Virus record (IMG/VR): IMGVR_UViG_3300044619_002192
Span: 1-22,177 of that record
DNA: 22,177 bases
Origin: a virus
Direction: 5' to 3' (one strand)
A model generated the notes under the pieces. It ran no database searches. It was given only the letters and a program-made list of their open reading frames with translations, and was not told where the DNA came from. A program made the position numbers and the translations under genes. Numbering within the stretch: position 1 is the first letter of the stretch; every line of letters starts with the position of its first letter. Of the stretch, positions 7,839 through 21,466 are shown one piece after another.

Positions 7839-8534
7839 CTAATTCATAAGCTGGTAATTGTGTTTTCGCAGTATGTAGTCATAATTTTTGTGGTTTGACT
7901 CATCAGGTCTGCGGATGTAAATATGCGGGTCTTTGCACTTTAATTCAAGCAATTCCAAAAGGTAAATGATTGAAGTGCTGACGGTGTGAATCTCTGTGGC
8001 TTTTTCAATAACCAAGGACCAATCAAACAAACTGAATCCTGAATACTCTTGCATTTCGACAATCTGCAACCCAGAATCAGGTTTTATTTGAACGGCTTTA
8101 TTGCCTACGCTGGTAAAGTTTCGATTGACAAGGCAAAACGGTTCATCTGGATTTGAAACAACCAAATCAAAAAGATGCAGTTCTTTTTCCATGTTTCTGC
8201 AATAAGTTGAATGGTTCCATGTCTTCCAATCAAGTTGGTACATATCGTACTTGGACCTCATGCAGAATTGATAGGGCACTCTTTGAATCTGATCAGCAAA
8301 CCGGATAGGGATTATTCGATTGTTCTGGATTGCTTGGTCCCTTTTAATATTTTCCCAGGTTCCGGGAATAATGCCAGTAGGAATCCATGTTATATCCGGG
8401 TAAGCTGCTTTCAGCCCTGGCAAGAACTTATCAAGCACCGGCCACACTATAGGACCATTGGCAATCTCTTTAATCAGTTGTTGGCAAAAGATATGGTCCC
8501 CAATCCCGTGAGGCTGTAATACAATGTTATTCAT
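7839..8534 (-). CDS. GT-B-like glycosyltransferase (family 9-like)
   Basis: A 231-aa protein starting MNNIVLQPHGIGDHIFCQQL. The GxGD motif right after the first strand is characteristic of GT-B enzymes related to family 9 (heptosyltransferase-like), where it contacts the acceptor or donor. Near the C-terminus VIEKATEIHTVSTSIIYLLE resembles the nucleotide-sugar part of these enzymes, where a conserved segment places a serine at the donor phosphate. It is shorter than a full heptosyltransferase (about 320-350 aa), so either a compact version or partly degenerate. The ATG at 8534 is preferred over a TTG nine bases upstream; it overlaps the end of the preceding glycosyltransferase gene by eight bases. 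It is the last gene of the operon. Sugar and acceptor are unknown. Confidence 0.65.
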   Translation of the reverse strand: MNNIVLQPHGIGDHIFCQQLIKEIANGPIVWPVLDKFLPGLKAAYPDITWIPTGIIPGTWENIKRDQAIQNNRIIPIRFADQIQRVPYQFCMRSKYDMYQLDWKTWNHSTYCRNMEKELHLFDLVVSNPDEPFCLVNRNFTSVGNKAVQIKPDSGLQIVEMQEYSGFSLFDWSLVIEKATEIHTVSTSIIYLLELLELKCKDPHIYIRRPDESNHKNYDYILRKHNYQLMN

Positions 8535-9186
8535 CGAAGTCAAAAGCTATATCTGGATTTTTTAAGTGTTTGCCTTCTTCGATTCCAATATGCTGAACGA
8601 CTGAAGGCTTTGAAACAATAAAAGGGGATTTGCTTCGGGAACAAACATTCCAATCCCAATGTCCGGAGCTTTTTAGCGCAGGAAAAACAATGGTCTGAAA
8701 CTGCGGCAAATTGAAAAACATATTGATTCCTCCAATAGTCTTTTTAGTAACGTAATCGCCAAAAGAATCAATGGTCTTATGCCTTATTTGCAAGGTCTTT
8801 GAATCAACTGTCTGAGTATTAAACCCGGAAACAATATTTCCCAAAAACCGAAGTTTAAGGTCGAAAAGAACCTCAAAGAAGTTTGGCTTTACAATAGCGT
8901 CGCTGTCCAGGATCATTAAAAAAGTGCATCCATTTTTTATTGCCTCGTTTAAGCCAGTCAGGATTGCTTTGGAAACGCCAAAGTTTCGGGGGTGGTTGTG
9001 TATAAAAACCGGGAAACCCTGTGCCCTAAACTCGTTCAGAATGATTGGAATAGTCGGATCAGAACTTCCATCATTTACGACGTAGAATTCAATCTCATGC
9101 GGATACTTAGCCAATGCCAAGGATTCAAAACATTGCTTCACGTACTGAGGCCGATTGAATACAGGAATAACTATGCCCGTTTTCAT
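8527..9186 (-). CDS. Family 2 glycosyltransferase
   Basis: A 219-aa GT-A glycosyltransferase. It begins with the family-2 signature MKTGIVIPVFNRPQYVKQCF, has the nucleotide-binding VVNDGSSD at ~36-43 and the metal-binding DSD at 94-96 (FLMILDSDAIVKPNFF). This is the catalytic core only, without membrane segments, so it is a soluble enzyme using a nucleotide-activated sugar. A 4-base ATGA overlap with the FkbM gene upstream and an 8-base overlap with the gene downstream show translational coupling within the operon. The sugar and acceptor cannot be read from sequence. Confidence 0.88.
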   Translation of the reverse strand: MKTGIVIPVFNRPQYVKQCFESLALAKYPHEIEFYVVNDGSSDPTIPIILNEFRAQGFPVFIHNHPRNFGVSKAILTGLNEAIKNGCTFLMILDSDAIVKPNFFEVLFDLKLRFLGNIVSGFNTQTVDSKTLQIRHKTIDSFGDYVTKKTIGGINMFFNLPQFQTIVFPALKSSGHWDWNVCSRSKSPFIVSKPSVVQHIGIEEGKHLKNPDIAFDFDE

Positions 9187-9875
9187 GGGTAAAATAAAAA
9201 GCTATGGTTCCCGGCATTGACCTGAGCGCAAAAACCCGCAAAGCTGAACTTTTGACCATTAAGGTCTTCGCAAGTATAGAAGTCAAATAGAGGCTCTATT
9301 GATTCCAAAAAGTTGTCGAATTCAGGAATCCAGGCAGGATGAAAACTGACGTACATTGGTGGTTTCAGTTTTCGCAGGATTTCGATTGAATGCGGCAAAA
9401 CCAAAGATTCACCACCTTCAATGTCCATTTTGATTAGGCCGATTTGCCCTGCAAAATATTCTTTTAGAATCCTTTCCAGAGTAATGCACCGTACTTCTGT
9501 TGGCTCCAAGTGTTCATCCCTTTTTAAGGCACTACTCATTGAGTCCCCCGTATTCCCGTAAAACTCCGTTCTGCCTTCAAAGTCAGAAACTACCATCTGC
9601 CAAAGCATAGCATTTTCAATGCTATTTATTTGGATGTTTCTTTTGAGAATATTAAAGGCCATGTAATCTGGTTCAATCGCCAAAACCTGACGAAACAACT
9701 TTGATGCAGGGAGAGAAACAACTCCGTTCCATGCTCCAATATCAATGAAGTCTTTTTCCTTGTCTGCAAAGCGGTTTAAAACATCAAAGGTCTTCGTTTC
9801 CCAATGGGGCAAAGTAGGCCAAAACCATTCATGGCCATCAACCACAAAATTTTCATTGTTAATCGTTACCTTCAT
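9183..9875 (-). CDS. FkbM-family SAM-dependent methyltransferase
   Basis: A 230-aa methyltransferase of the FkbM type. The SAM-binding motif I is FIDIGAWNGVVSLPASKLF (DIGAWNG at 45-51), motif II acidic residue is in LAIEPD (67-70), and the FkbM-typical IGLIKMDIEGGESLVLPHSI follows at about 150-169, then PPMYVSFHP. FkbM enzymes methylate hydroxyl groups of sugars or polyketides, which fits its place between glycosyltransferase genes: it probably caps or modifies a sugar added by its neighbours. It overlaps the upstream methyltransferase gene by 17 bases and the downstream GT2 gene by 4 bases. Confidence 0.85.
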   Translation of the reverse strand: MKVTINNENFVVDGHEWFWPTLPHWETKTFDVLNRFADKEKDFIDIGAWNGVVSLPASKLFRQVLAIEPDYMAFNILKRNIQINSIENAMLWQMVVSDFEGRTEFYGNTGDSMSSALKRDEHLEPTEVRCITLERILKEYFAGQIGLIKMDIEGGESLVLPHSIEILRKLKPPMYVSFHPAWIPEFDNFLESIEPLFDFYTCEDLNGQKFSFAGFCAQVNAGNHSFLFYP

Positions 9876-10365
9876 ACTTGCAGTATATTACAGAGAAAGA
9901 ATCATTTAGATCGCCATCCGAAACAAAGAAATGCTCAAAGTCTTCCCGGCTGTTCAGATAATTGTAAACAATCTTTGGCGTTAAATAATGAATGTGTTTA
10001 CGGTTGTTCCACGGCCTCCAGTAGTGCTGTTCATCCATGTTTGGAAGATAGAGGAAAAGAACTCCTCCCGGCTTCAATTCAGAAATCCAGTAATCTAAAG
10101 CTTCAACCCAATTTGGCAAGTGTTCGAGGCAATGTGAGGAAAAAATGTAGTCCAATTCCTTTGGAAGATGGAAGGCATGGTATTCATCGTTTATTGTAAT
10201 GTCCACCGGTATTGCACCAGGGAAAGCCCATTCTGGCCTGTTGCATCCAATATCAACTCCTTTGCCAAGGCATACCTTTTGAGCAAAGGGAAAAGCAAAC
10301 TGAGCCGCAAAGCCTTCGGCCTGAAATGCTGGATAAATCTGGTCTTTAAATTCAATTATCTTCAT
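9859..10365 (-). CDS. Class I SAM methyltransferase (type 11-like)
   Basis: A 168-aa protein with a methyltransferase fold: GKGVDIGCNRPEWAFPGAIP supplies motif I (VDIGC at 37-41) and the following acidic strand end, LDYIFSSHCLEHLPNWVEAL is the motif IV/EHL segment typical of Methyltransf_11 proteins, and LKPGGVLFLYLPN is the post-motif strand. The ATG at 10365 (MKIIEFKDQIYPAF) is chosen; a TTG further upstream would add 15 residues that overlap the preceding gene and look spurious. It overlaps the 92-aa gene by 14 bases. In glycan clusters such proteins act on sugars or sugar-linked groups; the substrate here is unknown. Confidence 0.8.
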   Translation of the reverse strand: MKIIEFKDQIYPAFQAEGFAAQFAFPFAQKVCLGKGVDIGCNRPEWAFPGAIPVDITINDEYHAFHLPKELDYIFSSHCLEHLPNWVEALDYWISELKPGGVLFLYLPNMDEQHYWRPWNNRKHIHYLTPKIVYNYLNSREDFEHFFVSDGDLNDSFSVIYCKYEGND

Positions 10366-10630
10366 CTTCAATATCTGATTCTCTTTCTCCAAAATAAGTT
10401 GGGACAACAAGGTCTTTATTCACATCCTCGAGCAAAGAACGGCTTTTGCCCATTATAGTGCGAATCTGAATTTCACTCACTCCAAAAGCCTTAGATTGCT
10501 GTGAAATCAAATCAGCCTTGATAATCCGGCCTTTCTTTATTTGATCTATTGAGGTTATGCAGTCCTCGATTGCCTGTGCATATTGGTTTGGGGTGAACTT
10601 TTCACGCCAGGGTAAGAGTGGGATAATCAT
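10352..10630 (-). CDS. Small helical protein of unknown function
   Basis: A 92-aa protein with two or three helices (TPNQYAQAIEDCITSIDQIK; AFGVSEIQIRTIMGKSRSLL) and an acidic end (ERESDIEDEDN). The central part could be a small helix-turn-helix but no family is recognised. It overlaps the upstream 116-aa gene by four bases (ATGA) and the downstream methyltransferase by 14 bases, so it is translated as part of the operon. Whether it serves the glycan pathway is not visible. Confidence 0.6.
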   Translation of the reverse strand: MIIPLLPWREKFTPNQYAQAIEDCITSIDQIKKGRIIKADLISQQSKAFGVSEIQIRTIMGKSRSLLEDVNKDLVVPTYFGERESDIEDEDN

Positions 10631-10977
10631 TTTGTTTCTTCGGTTTTAAATGCGAGTTCGGTTCCTGTCAAAGCGAAAAAAAGGTTCTGGACTTGGTGGA
10701 CAAACTTTATTTCTGTTCCATAAAAGGCAGAAAGCTGTTCATGGTAAAAGACAAATCCGTCTTTATTTGATTGCAGTTGGTAGTCAAAGTGGTCTGAATA
10801 AAAAGTATTTTTCTCCTGCACAAACCCCGCCCTCAGTAACCATTCTTCGGTTAATGGCAAAGGCTCAAAATGTTCCTTTTCCGAACAAACCAAAATCCCA
10901 TAGGCATTCACCTGTATTGGATGTTGATAATCTGGGTGCTTTACCCAATTACGAATGCGTAATTCTTCTGCTTTCAT
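10627..10977 (-). CDS. Conserved Bacteroidetes-phage protein of unknown function
   Basis: A 116-aa protein opening MKAEELRIRNWVKH and carrying PLPLTEEWLLRAGF and VHQVQNLFFALTGTEL. I recognise this pattern (ExLRIGNWV ... PLTEEWLLKFGF ... VHQLQNLYFALTG) as a very common hypothetical protein of Bacteroidetes phages and prophages. Its function has not been established as far as I know. It is not a glycan enzyme by any visible motif. Its ATG overlaps by four bases the stop of a truncated reading frame (10974-11099) left behind beside the HNH gene, which suggests that it was originally coupled to the gene upstream. Confidence 0.8.
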   Translation of the reverse strand: MKAEELRIRNWVKHPDYQHPIQVNAYGILVCSEKEHFEPLPLTEEWLLRAGFVQEKNTFYSDHFDYQLQSNKDGFVFYHEQLSAFYGTEIKFVHQVQNLFFALTGTELAFKTEETK

Positions 10978-11072
10978 TTCTCTTTTAATTTTCGTTGTTC
11001 AAAAAAATCTTTGTGTTCGGGAAAATTCCCGGTAAAAAGTCTGCTGTAATAGCTGGAAAAGTTGTTGTTTTT
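10974..11072 (-). pseudogene. Severed C-terminal end of an upstream gene, probably the glycosyltransferase at 11679
   Basis: Just after the HNH stop codon, a frame without its own start runs on to a TGA that overlaps the next gene's ATG by four bases, exactly the junction style of the other genes in this operon. The frame encodes about 32 residues including SSYYSRLFTGNFPEHKDFF and a basic end (EQRKLKEK), with coding-like composition. It is open back to 11099 inside the HNH gene, then meets TAA. It is in the same frame as the glycosyltransferase gene that ends abruptly at 11679 on the other side of the HNH unit. The simplest reading is that the HNH unit entered that gene near its 3' end and left this tail behind. 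That it belonged to the glycosyltransferase, and not to another lost gene, is inference. Confidence 0.55.
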
Positions 11073-11556
11073 AGATATTTTTCCAAGTTCTTTTTGTTTT
11101 TATGTTCCAAATAGTAGAAGCATAAACATTGTATTGTTTGCTTAGTTTTAAACAGGACAATTCTGATTGCCGTATTTGCAAAACAATTTCTTTGTTTAAT
11201 TTTTGCACCTTTCCTTTCCTGCCTATTCCCTTTTTTAATATTTTAATCTTATGGTTTATATTTTCTGTATGGGTAGCCCATTCAAGATTTTGGACAATAT
11301 TATTATATGGATTTCCGTCAATATGATTTACGGTCCTTTTGTTTTCAGGGTTTTCTAAAAAAGTTTTTGCTATTAATCGATGAACCAAATGAATAGTAAT
11401 TTCCTTGGCCTTACTAAGCCTAACATGGTGATACTTCGTCCCTTTTTGGGGCTTTAGGATTCTTTTTTGCCGGTAAGTTGATTTTATCCTTCCTAAAGAA
11501 CTTGCTTGGTAAACTCCTTCGTATCCGGGAATGTCTTTCCAAATTTCATTTTCCAT
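11071..11556 (-). CDS. HNH homing endonuclease (NUMOD4-HNH-HTH)
   Basis: A 161-aa endonuclease. NUMOD4 at residues 1-26 (MENEIWKDIPGYEGVYQASS, LGRIKS); HNH core at ~56-92 (LVHRLIAKTFLENP, TVNHIDGNPYNN, NLEWAT) with His59, His78, Asp80 and Asn82 as likely catalytic and metal residues; and a C-terminal helix-turn-helix (~118-160, IRQSELSCLKLSKQYNVYA) that reads DNA. Such proteins cut intron- or intein-less alleles and spread their own gene. The ATG at 11556 begins exactly at the domain start. An in-frame ATG at 11646 would add 30 residues (MKTLKTFAPSVLPIPVRESD...), and since the promoter is only about 16 bases before it, either that longer form or a leader peptide is possible. The gene is visibly more AT-rich than its neighbours, which fits recent arrival. 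Confidence 0.88.
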   Translation of the reverse strand: MENEIWKDIPGYEGVYQASSLGRIKSTYRQKRILKPQKGTKYHHVRLSKAKEITIHLVHRLIAKTFLENPENKRTVNHIDGNPYNNIVQNLEWATHTENINHKIKILKKGIGRKGKVQKLNKEIVLQIRQSELSCLKLSKQYNVYASTIWNIKTKRTWKNI

Positions 11557-11657
11557 AAAAAAAGATTGCCCCGACTGTAAAGGCTCGTCCGACTCCCGAA
11601 CGGGAATAGGCAATACAGAAGGGGCAAAAGTTTTTAATGTTTTCATATCGGACGAGC
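11557..11657 (-). promoter_or_regulatory. Structured leader with terminator ahead of the HNH gene
   Basis: Read 5' to 3' on the minus strand: arm a GCTCGTCCGA (11657-11648); ATG of a short ORF (11646); arm t TTGCCCCTTCTGTA (11627-11614); hairpin TTCCCGTTCGGGAG (11606-11593); arm a' TCGGACGAGC (11592-11583); arm t' TACAGTCGGGGCAA (11579-11566); TCTTTTTTT; ATG of HNH (11556). a/a' is a perfect 10-bp helix. t/t' pairs as 7 bp plus 4 bp around a 3x3 internal loop and is followed by a U-run, so it is an intrinsic terminator whose last U touches the AUG. The two helices cross (a, t, a', t'), so they form a pseudoknot or compete. The arms are exact complements, so chance is unlikely; the mechanism is inferred. 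Confidence 0.65.
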
Positions 11658-11661
11658 AATG

Positions 11662-11669
11662 CAAAGATA
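11662..11669 (-). promoter_or_regulatory. Promoter -7 box for the HNH unit
   Basis: Minus strand TATCTTTG followed by C, a perfect TAnnTTTG match, lying about ten bases after the TGA of the glycosyltransferase gene (11679). Transcription would begin near 11656, at the start of leader arm a. The -33 box is poor. The HNH unit therefore has its own promoter inside the operon. Confidence 0.6.
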
Positions 11670-11678
11670 GCAAAATAA

Positions 11679-12362
11679 TCAATAAATGTGTCTGTTTTGA
11701 CCCAAATGCTTCACATACCCTCTCAACAAGGTAGCAGCCACAAACCCATTTCGCCAATAAACCTGACCGATCTGGCTTTCTGCCATCCAAGGTTTTGCTC
11801 TGTCCCATGTGCATTTCTCCGCATAGCCATTTGGGAATAGTCTTTGGTAATCCGATAGCCTACGAAGGCCAGGATTGAAAGAAAATCCCCTCCATTGACC
11901 TCTGGCATGAAGTTTTGAAAGGTGCTGGTAATGCGTCCGCAAATGCGTGTGAATCGGTCCAGATGCAGGATGTCCATTGCGGTCCTTTGGATCCCTTAAC
12001 CAGACCTGCATAACCTTTGGTTCGTGCTGAAGAATGTCCAGGCTGGATTGAATGAAGCTTGTTTGGTAAAACTCCCAATCGTCCTCGCAATGAAAAATGT
12101 ATGGCGTTTCTACCAGTGAATAAAGGCGATCAACAGCCGTTATTTGACCAACATTTTTACTGTCCGCATAAACTGTTACGGGGCAAAGGTTTCTGCAATA
12201 ATCTTTTATCAAATAAGTCATTTCCTGGCCTATTGAAACACCAGAGTCTTCATAAATATACAATGCTACTGGTTTTGGCCCATCCCAATGCTTTATCAGG
12301 CTTTCAATTGTTCTTGTCAGAAGGTCAAACCGACCGCACGAAGTCAAACAAACCGTAATCAT
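11679..12362 (-). CDS. GT-A glycosyltransferase-like protein, probably truncated at its C-terminus
   Basis: A 227-aa protein with a family-2-like start MITVCLTSCGRFDLLTRTIE, a donor-binding strand ending in YIYEDSGVS and the metal-binding segment YIFHCEDDWEFYQ (EDDW at 93-96), followed by an acceptor half with aromatic and His-rich loops (HTHLRTHYQHLSKL). This is a soluble nucleotide-sugar glycosyltransferase. It ends abruptly in KHLGQNRHIY just before the HNH unit's promoter, and a same-frame tail of about 32 residues survives beyond the HNH gene (10974-11072). The catalytic half is intact, so loss of this tail may or may not abolish activity. It overlaps the upstream 82-aa gene by four bases. 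Confidence 0.75.
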   Translation of the reverse strand: MITVCLTSCGRFDLLTRTIESLIKHWDGPKPVALYIYEDSGVSIGQEMTYLIKDYCRNLCPVTVYADSKNVGQITAVDRLYSLVETPYIFHCEDDWEFYQTSFIQSSLDILQHEPKVMQVWLRDPKDRNGHPASGPIHTHLRTHYQHLSKLHARGQWRGFSFNPGLRRLSDYQRLFPNGYAEKCTWDRAKPWMAESQIGQVYWRNGFVAATLLRGYVKHLGQNRHIY

Positions 12363-20350: not shown

Positions 20351-20358
20351 TATATTTG
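20351..20358 (+). promoter_or_regulatory. Promoter -7 box for the structured leader and 65-aa gene
   Basis: TATATTTG followed by C, a perfect TAnnTTTG box, nine bases after the coiled-coil stop. Start expected near 20364. The -33 box is weak. Confidence 0.55.
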
Positions 20359-20363
20359 CAATG

Positions 20364-20496
20364 TCGAAAGACCCGGATTGGAACCCCGGTAAAATAAGGT
20401 AAAAATGAAGATTTTTAAAGCCCCATTCGGTCGGTACTGTTCAGCGTGTTACCTCGCTGGTTCCAAACAGGAAAGCCGGATGGGGTTTTTGTTTTT
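20364..20496 (+). promoter_or_regulatory. Structured leader with terminator ahead of the 65-aa gene
   Basis: In order: arm a TTGGAACC (20378-20385); leader ORF start (20405); arm t GCCCCATTCGG (20420-20430); hairpin CAGCG/CGCTG (20442-20446 with 20455-20459), itself enclosed by CTGTT/AACAG (20437-20441 with 20466-20470); arm a' GGTTCCAA (20459-20466); arm t' CCGGATGGGG (20476-20485); TTTTTGTTTTT; ATG at 20497. t/t' is a 10-bp stem with one G-U pair, extended by A-U pairs, and the U-run touches the AUG. a/a' is 8 perfect pairs. The order a, t, a', t' is the same as in the HNH leader at 11557-11657, although the sequences differ. Confidence 0.65.
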
Positions 20497-20500
20497 ATGA
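20405..20500 (+). CDS. 31-aa leader peptide spanning the attenuator
   Basis: A short ORF beginning MKIFKAPFGRYCSACYLAGS and ending in GFLFL. Its TGA overlaps the ATG of the 65-aa gene (ATGA), so the peptide covers the whole terminator hairpin and ribosomes translating it would melt the stem. This supports a role as a leader peptide in attenuation or translational coupling; whether it is made is not known. A second possible ORF at 20361 (13 codons) probably starts before the transcription start and is not counted. Confidence 0.4.
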   Translation: MKIFKAPFGRYCSACYLAGSKQESRMGFLFL

Positions 20501-20694
20501 ATCTTTTATTAGAAGATCGAGCAGATGATTGGAAATTAGTAGTTACAATTTTTAGCGATTCAGTTTTGCTAAAAACAACAAATGGCGATTCTGTTTCAAT
20601 AGTTGATTTAGAAAGTGAAAATTTTTATAAGCTATGCAAACTTTATGTTTCATGGTATAATGAAGAGCCGGGGTTTGAACATTTAGTGTTTTAA
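20497..20694 (+). CDS. Small protein of unknown function under attenuator-like leader
   Basis: A 65-aa protein, MNLLLEDRADDWKLVVTIFS ... EEPGFEHLVF, acidic, probably beta-rich with a helical end (FYKLCKLYVSWYNEE). No domain is recognised. The gene is more AT-rich in its codons than the flanking genes, which suggests separate origin. The ATG at 20497 is chosen because the leader's U-run ends there and the leader ORF's TGA overlaps it; a longer frame from 20446 lies inside the hairpin and is not favoured. The next gene starts four bases after its stop. Confidence 0.6.
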   Translation: MNLLLEDRADDWKLVVTIFSDSVLLKTTNGDSVSIVDLESENFYKLCKLYVSWYNEEPGFEHLVF

Positions 20695-20698
20695 ATTT

Positions 20699-21466
20699 AT
20701 GGCTAAAGATCCAGCTTTCCTGTTTTACAGTTCCGATTTTTTGACAGGGACCATGTTTATGTCAAATGAGCAGGTTGGCCTATACATTCGGCTTTTGTGC
20801 GCTCAACATCAACATGGGGGGAGAATTGATACGAACGTATTACGAGCGCAATGCGATTCAATTACGAACGGGGCATCAGTGTATTCAAAATTTCAGCACG
20901 ACGAATCCGGGAGTTATTCTTTACGACTTGAAAAAGAGATGTTAATCCGTAAAGAAAAAGGCTTAAAAGCCAAAGAATCAGTGAATAAGAGATGGGAAAA
21001 ACATAGAAACGAAAGTAATACGAACGTATTACGTTCTGAAGGTGTAAATGAAAGTGTAAATGAAAGTGTAAATGAAACTGGAATTGTAATTAGGGATAGG
21101 GGTGCAGGGGAAAGGGTAAAAATCAAAACCGACACCTACGGACTTTTTGAACCCTTGGTAAAAAAATGGATTGACTACAAAAAAGCCGAACATCGGGAAA
21201 CCTACAAAACCCAGGCAACCCTGGATGAATTTGTAAAAAAGTTGATCGACTATTCTGGCGGGGATTTCCACAGATCCGAAAAGATTATTGACAATTCAAT
21301 CGCAAATCGGTGGAAGGGTATTTTCCCGGAAAAACCAAATGGTAAGCCAGAACCAAAAAAAGAATACCATCCTGACGGAACTGAAATGTCAGAGCAGGAA
21401 AGAAACCTTAAAGGGGTATTGGAATTGATAAAAAAGAAACACGCAAACAATGGAAGCAACTCGTAA
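20699..21466 (+). CDS. DUF1376-type replication protein
   Basis: A 255-aa protein. Its N-terminal part (FLFYSSDFLTGTMFMSNEQV, GLYIRLLCAQHQHGGRI) is the DUF1376-type winged-helix region found in phage replication-initiation proteins. The middle (~residues 95-130) is a variable, repeat-bearing linker (NVLRSEGVNESVNESVNETG), and the C-terminal part (YKTQATLDEFVKKLIDYSGG, KIIDNSIANRWKGIF) is the helical region seen at the end of DnaD/primosome-like phage proteins. It likely binds the origin and loads the helicase. The 12-bp tandem repeat and two palindromic 16-bp repeats lie within the gene, which recalls lambda O, where iterons lie inside the initiator gene. Confidence 0.75.
   Translation: MAKDPAFLFYSSDFLTGTMFMSNEQVGLYIRLLCAQHQHGGRIDTNVLRAQCDSITNGASVYSKFQHDESGSYSLRLEKEMLIRKEKGLKAKESVNKRWEKHRNESNTNVLRSEGVNESVNESVNETGIVIRDRGAGERVKIKTDTYGLFEPLVKKWIDYKKAEHRETYKTQATLDEFVKKLIDYSGGDFHRSEKIIDNSIANRWKGIFPEKPNGKPEPKKEYHPDGTEMSEQERNLKGVLELIKKKHANNGSNS
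20829..20844 (+). repeat. 16-bp palindrome-bearing repeat, copy 1
   Basis: ATACGAACGTATTACG, identical to 21018-21033; contains the inverted repeat ATACG-AA-CGTAT. It encodes TNVLR with the same codons in both copies. A shorter relative ATTACGAACG is at 20861-20870. Confidence 0.65.
21018..21033 (+). repeat. 16-bp palindrome-bearing repeat, copy 2
   Basis: Identical to 20829-20844. Here the flank also forms a second inverted repeat, GAACGT-ATT-ACGTTC. Followed after eight bases by the tandem 12-mers. Confidence 0.65.
21042..21077 (+). repeat. Three tandem 12-bp repeats (iteron-like)
   Basis: Three perfect copies of GTGTAAATGAAA inside the DUF1376-type gene, encoding repeated VNES. Possible binding sites for the protein itself at an internal origin; equally, a simple slippage expansion in a linker. 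Confidence 0.75.

Follow-up and report, generated by a model that had tools for sequence, protein, structure and literature searches.

For IncI/IncB repZ, a repY leader peptide and a pseudoknot with long-range loop pairing lie before the replication gene. Attenuation of the pT181 and pIP501 rep genes reportedly uses a leader terminator and RNA pairing to control the replication gene. In satellite phage P4, according to PMC4825925, an RNA derived from the leader pairs with complementary leader sequences and terminates transcription of the replication genes.

The window analysed here, an entire IMG/VR virus record of 22,177 bases, holds two leaders, W1 (11557-11669, minus strand), upstream of a NUMOD4-HNH gene, and W2 (20351-20499, plus strand), in which a 5′ arm, a, pairs with a sequence, a′, lying between the two arms, t and t′, of an intrinsic terminator. 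Many leaders at loci fetched from viral contigs through relatives of the HNH and replication genes (L-numbers below) have the W1-like topology with wholly different sequences. In the commonest form, class I, the ~7-nt loop a of a 5′ hairpin, typically of 4-6 bp, matches the terminator apical loop a′ as a kissing loop; in class II, which includes W1 and W2, a/a′ is 8-10 bp long and a leader ORF is present. In kind this is attenuation; what is new is the architecture and the matched hypervariable loops. Rfam 15 gave no family match to the elements at gathering score (high-E-value matches around the element lay far below the gathering scores and were dismissed), and no description of such an element was found among open-licence papers.

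The partner in pT181 and pIP501 is said to come from a separate antisense transcript, whereas the kissing elements carry both loops on the sense RNA. IncI/IncB repZ resembles class II in combining a leader ORF with long-range loop pairing before a replication gene, but its control acts on translation and has no terminator, unlike that of the kissing elements. The likeness to P4 CI RNA immunity (seqA/seqC) consists in a leader-encoded RNA, complementary segments within the leader and premature termination upstream of replication genes. Complementary leader segments of this kind stand before replication genes in W2, the L256-type leaders, Tenacibaculum phage Gundel_1 and others, though not in the HNH-linked cases. 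The likeness is one of architecture: the P4 CI RNA is a processed antisense RNA acting on seqA and seqC, whereas in the W1/W2 class the partner lies within the terminator loop.

Crossing helices and terminators in the window

The preliminary description of W1 had reported a −7 box, a 10-bp a/a′ helix, a crossing t/t′ stem with a 3×3 internal loop, a small hairpin and a U-run abutting the HNH AUG, and each of these lies where it had been placed (Table 1). The arms follow the order a, t, a′, t′ and the helices thus cross; the a/a′ duplex has an energy of −18.4 kcal/mol, and t/t′ comprises 11 bp (7 + 4 pairs). A detector requiring this order, a U-run and complementarity gave W1 a score of 29, reached by 0 of 3000 dinucleotide shuffles in which the T-run and ATG were kept (best shuffle, 23). 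This bears out the claim of an RNA-level element made of two crossing helices and a gene-abutting terminator. RNAfold, which cannot model pseudoknots and so draws no crossing helix, folds W1 into t/t′ with the inner hairpin at −31.3 kcal/mol, compared with a shuffle mean of −22.4 (z = −2.8; 2 of 200 shuffles as good). Design at the RNA level had been read from the arms, the U-run and the leader ORF together; the shuffles uphold this for the crossing arms, while the in-frame open ORF is weak evidence on its own because it stays open in 34% of shuffles. By eye, the small hairpin has a counterpart at the same place in W2, L050, L253 and L262.

Promoter (a consensus match), GC-rich stem with U-run, and gene follow one another as in the attenuator class. 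The helix a/a′ had been proposed to decide read-through, but a/a′ and t/t′ have no bases in common in either W1 or W2, so the classical two-state switch, in which an antiterminator is incompatible by sequence with the terminator, does not apply to a/a′. The HNH protein matches NUMOD4 (3.5e-15) and HNH_3 (3.7e-6) in Pfam, both above cut-off, and the identical protein of L001 matches PHROG 59, HNH endonuclease (9.3e-47). Its gene is inserted among glycosyltransferase and methyltransferase genes (8527-12362, minus strand; Glycos_transf_2, FkbM, Methyltransf_23).

A scan of the whole window found one other strong element, W2, which as a whole was likewise matched by 0 of 3000 shuffles. It precedes a 65-aa orphan ORF, for which Pfam and PHROG searches returned no match, and then a primosomal/replication O-like gene.

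Table 1 Features of the two leader elements and the genes behind them.
Feature	Position	Strand	Sequence or remarks
W1 −7-like promoter box	11662..11669	−	TATCTTTG; Bacteroidota TAnnTTTG type, consensus match only
W1 arm a	11648..11657	−	GCTCGTCCGA; just 3′ of −7-like box; 10/10 complementary to a′
W1 leader ORF	11557..11646	−	MKTLKTFAPSVLPIPVRESDEPLQSGQSFF; ATG 11646-11644; HNH frame
W1 terminator 5′ arm t	11614..11627	−	TTGCCCC 11627-11621 + TGTA 11617-11614
W1 small hairpin	11593..11606	−	TTCCC-GTTC-GGGAG; between t and a′
W1 arm a′	11583..11592	−	TCGGACGAGC; within terminator loop
W1 terminator 3′ arm t′	11566..11579	−	TACA 11579-11576 + GGGGCAA 11572-11566
W1 intrinsic-terminator T-run	11557..11563	−	from sequence
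NUMOD4-HNH homing-type endonuclease gene, 161 aa	11071..11556	−	ATG 11556-11554; Pfam NUMOD4, HNH_3
W2 −7-like box	20351..20358	+	TATATTTG; from sequence
W2 hairpin 1	20373..20389	+	CCGG-ATTGGAACC-CCGG; loop holds a TTGGAACC 20378-20385
W2 leader ORF	20405..20500	+	MKIFKAPFGRYCSACYLAGSKQESRMGFLFL, then stop, which overlaps following ATG (ATGA)
W2 terminator 5′ arm t	20417..20430	+	AAAGCCCCATTCGG; from sequence
W2 hairpin-2 loop region with a′	20457..20470	+	GGTTCCAA; a′ 20459-20466, between CTG/CAG
W2 terminator 3′ arm t′ and T-run	20476..20496	+	CCGGATGGGGTTTT + T-run; then ATG
65-aa orphan ORF	20497..20694	+	first gene 3′ of W2
Primosomal/replication O-like gene	20699..21466	+	second gene 3′ of W2; PHROG 9327 3.3e-11, PHROG 678 2.4e-7

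Covariation across a wider class of leaders

In 289 loci (2.35 Mb) we identified 47 distinct elements scoring at least 24, against 3, 8 and 4 in three dinucleotide shuffles. A TAnnTTTG box lies 4-32 nt 5′ of a in 30 of the 47, compared with 0 of 15 shuffle hits, and a TTTACA-N16-18-TAnnnT promoter pattern accompanies three further elements (L134 twice, L097). The other 14 hits have neither promoter pattern; L106, L137 and L063 look real, and several others with no real ORF behind (e.g. L047, L051, L197, L211 and L177) are probably due to chance. Throughout the elements listed, a′ is situated between t and t′. With the first detector an element scored in just 14 of 100 distinct HNH upstream regions, L092 at least being missed.

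Some leaders depart from the common layout. At L092 (1373-1448, before a DNA methylase gene) and L056 (5891-5971, before an HNH gene), a′ forms nearly the whole terminator loop, without a separate surrounding stem. By eye, L263 (~2660-2777) has a class II-like leader (GTGAGTAAG/CTTACTCAC) whose t/t′ is strong but whose U-run is poor; it may have decayed or may act in translation. Similar TGAT/TGAT internal loops between t and a′ are visible by eye in L015, L056 and L065 and could form tandem G-A pairs between terminator stem and kissing loop. A riboswitch was dropped as first choice on finding, by eye, no invariant unpaired core outside the helices.

The fetched copies of W1, like those of W2, are all identical, so covariation is shown for the class rather than for W1 and W2 themselves. 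The preliminary description had held that homologous leaders lacking covariation would count against the element; instead, the topology is kept with different, perfectly matched arms. As the detector itself requires complementary arms, a second selection ignored complementarity and used only the promoter box, the two hairpins (5′ and terminator) and the ATG. In 13 of the 16 elements so chosen, loop 1 matched the terminator interior over at least 6 bp, and in 11 over at least 7 bp, while at least 7 bp occurred in 3.3% of the control cross pairs (n = 240). The three failures comprise L185, a hairpin mis-assignment for which the detector gives TCGCAGC/GCTGCGA, and L122 and L157, which look unrelated.

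Natural alleles of the loops were seen in L256, L257 and L265, which are 94-98% identical over aligned blocks and have a replication gene related to that of the window. A pattern scan with part of the L256-type leader gave 10 records, perhaps not independent isolates, with three loop alleles, GTGCAG/CTGCAC (3 records), GAGCGA/TCGCTC (3) and TAGCAG/CTGCTA (4), complementary in 10/10. Across the 97 columns of this leader, 8 of 12 loop columns vary compared with 2 of 85 elsewhere (Fisher p = 1.4e-7), although apparent variation 5′ of a′ is lowered because the scan pattern fixed ~19 bases just 5′ of a′; the 5′ half of the leader lay outside the pattern. One of the two variable non-loop columns is in the stem beside a′ and linked to the third allele, the other in L285. 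The alleles occur on mixed flanks: L285 and L286 have a common 3′ side with different alleles, L284 and L288 a common 5′ side with L279 but a different allele, and in L280 and L283 the leader precedes a different gene. Cognate loop duplexes reach −6.4 to −8.1 kcal/mol and non-cognate ones −2.0 to −5.0. Elemovirus phages of one host also have three alleles, TGAGAGCT/GGCTCTCA, GTGAGATG/CATCTCAC and GTGGAGG/CCTCCAC, with 59 of the 68 records at ≥99% identity to the query. We make no claim that a genome keeps its loop pairs distinct from one another, a comparison without power since random pairs seldom match anyway.

Downstream genes and carrier phages

Counts of downstream genes are biased because the loci were picked mostly through HNH genes. 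Of the 33 downstream ORFs with promoter support, 19 have a NUMOD4 match and 18 an HNH_3 match, with single matches to GIY-YIG, N6_N4_Mtase and HTH_36 and two matches to each of two replication-initiation PHROGs. Phages of Bacteroidota have related elements upstream of NUMOD4-HNH, GIY-YIG, DNA-methylase and replication-initiation genes, and two contigs with Gram-positive-type promoters have them upstream of HNH genes. The purpose suggested for W1, that of holding down a dangerous nuclease, is too limited as it stands, because related elements also precede replication-initiation, DNA methylase and GIY-YIG genes.

Among named phages scanned in full or over their first 50 kb, a clear element was found in Flavobacterium phage FCL-2, where the following gene matches PHROG 428 (replication initiation), in Polaribacter phage P12002L, where the following gene is annotated as primosomal protein, and in Flavobacterium phage elemoA, where gp20 and replication gp19 follow; none was found in phi10:1 or Enterococcus KEN18, and LG62 gave a weak hit only, which was discounted. 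ElemoE also carries the element. Eight further stretches came from named phages that have relatives of the FCL-2 and P12002L replication genes, and three of these stretches contain it: Gundel_1, found by script before a replication protein, and the near-identical Parabacteroides phages PD691P6 and PD691P3, read by eye. No element was seen in the stretches from RAP44, CRP19, PT33, PJL1 and one unclassified record. Bacteroidota genomes with NUMOD4 (41 of 395; 29 loci kept, L222-L250) yielded no convincing element, the hits in L229 and L236 being discounted.

The int-alpA RNA (RF02996) is likewise a structured phage leader before the NUMOD4-HNH family, present above gathering score at L118 (5897-5963), but it has another fold and sequence, and the kissing elements do not match RF02996. 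Leaders resembling int-alpA by eye, none shown above gathering score, lie at L006, L011, L085, L086, L109, L117, L121 and, upstream of 28031, L276. It seems that structured leaders are drawn to genes of homing-type endonucleases.

Mechanism and alternatives

The class combines a promoter-like box, crossing helices, covariation, a terminator and gene adjacency. From these sequence features we consider it probable that the element is a promoter-proximal transcription attenuator of phages, with its terminator tied to the RNA 5′ end. Transcription would start at or just before the 5′ arm or hairpin a; ~60-90 nt downstream an intrinsic terminator would form, its loop region carrying a′, and a would pair with a′, as a kissing loop of 7 bp in class I and as a pseudoknot of 8-10 bp in class II. 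With the terminator directly before the gene, most transcripts should by default end as RNAs of ~85-145 nt, and the gene would be made only through read-through. With no overlap between a/a′ and t/t′, both helices can be present together, and the most likely role of the 5′ end is to stabilise or gate the terminator. We infer that read-through would depend on whether the 5′ end is free: an occupied 5′ arm, whether by a ribosome starting the leader ORF in class II or by bound RNA or protein, would loosen the terminator. Such an element would serve both homing-type endonuclease genes and replication-initiation operons.

A ribosome could have a larger part. Translation-coupled attenuation in the W1 class, in which ribosomes that begin on the leader ORF would occupy first a, then t, so that the terminator fails under brisk translation and translation continues into the gene, either in frame or by way of an ATGA overlap, is possible but somewhat doubtful. 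All 8 class II elements inspected have an ATG 8-28 nt past the 5′-most base of a; in six of them the ORF stays open as far as the gene start (chance 0.10-0.36 for each), and ATGA overlaps end the leader ORFs of W2 and L264. Yet the leader can be in frame 0, 1 or 2 relative to the gene, and the ORFs of L253 and L262, which encode related peptides and have different stop codons at the same place (by eye), end after 15 codons, 5′ of a′. Since the common class I is mostly without a leader ORF (by eye), translation coupling cannot be the general mechanism. Control by the leader ORF is not borne out in the form first proposed, since the ORF belongs mainly to that one subclass and is open to the gene in only 6/8; the evidence suggests that leader translation matters in class II and is not required across the whole class. 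Another reading, that the region is simply the N-terminal extension of the HNH protein and its structure imposed by coding or due to chance, is extremely improbable. The leader ORF is in frame in W1 and L063, as that would demand, but the shuffles contradict it, as do homologues with out-of-frame leader ORFs or none, which retain the helices; the preliminary description had looked for protein-coding homologues without helices as the contrary case. We also think it distinctly unlikely that the element is a stand-alone small RNA of the phage beside which the next gene is merely packed. Promoter-like box, compact fold and terminator do make a complete RNA gene, and similar structures stand upstream of unrelated genes, but in 27 of the 47 hits the ATG lies no more than 16 nt from the stem, leaving no room for another promoter, and by eye no single target sequence is common to the loops.

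A purely cis role leaves the matched diversification of the loops unexplained, whereas a trans role as in P4 would explain it. The loop of the terminated leader from one genome would then pair with that of a nascent leader made from another copy and promote termination there, giving dosage control of the replication operon or superinfection immunity, with loop alleles as immunity types. Variation in the L256-type leaders, concentrated in the loops, always complementary and sorted into three alleles on mixed flanks, points this way, as do the gap between cognate and non-cognate duplex energies, the replication-type gene in the operon and the precedent of P4 (PMC4825925). By this analogy the trans code is worth considering, though on balance rather unlikely: pairing in cis should outcompete pairing in trans, L253/L262 and L134/L097 show the opposite pattern, conserving arm a while the flanks diverge, nine FCL-2-type records are identical, and many carriers are fragments. 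A cis attenuator and a trans code are not mutually exclusive.

If the attenuator reading is true, the leaders represent a new RNA architecture in transcription control, with a kissing loop fastening the terminator to the 5′ end of its own transcript, which would be used repeatedly by phages of Bacteroidota, and apparently by Firmicutes phages, for replication and homing genes. More speculatively, the loop sequences suggest a widespread phage leader-RNA family whose hypervariable, always-matching kissing pair may be an identity code, through which a short RNA would shut down the replication or nuclease genes of phages with the same loop; frequency-dependent selection would then maintain several types of loop within a population. 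With their three naturally occurring alleles, the L256-type leaders bring P4-like RNA immunity in environmental phages within reach of a direct test.
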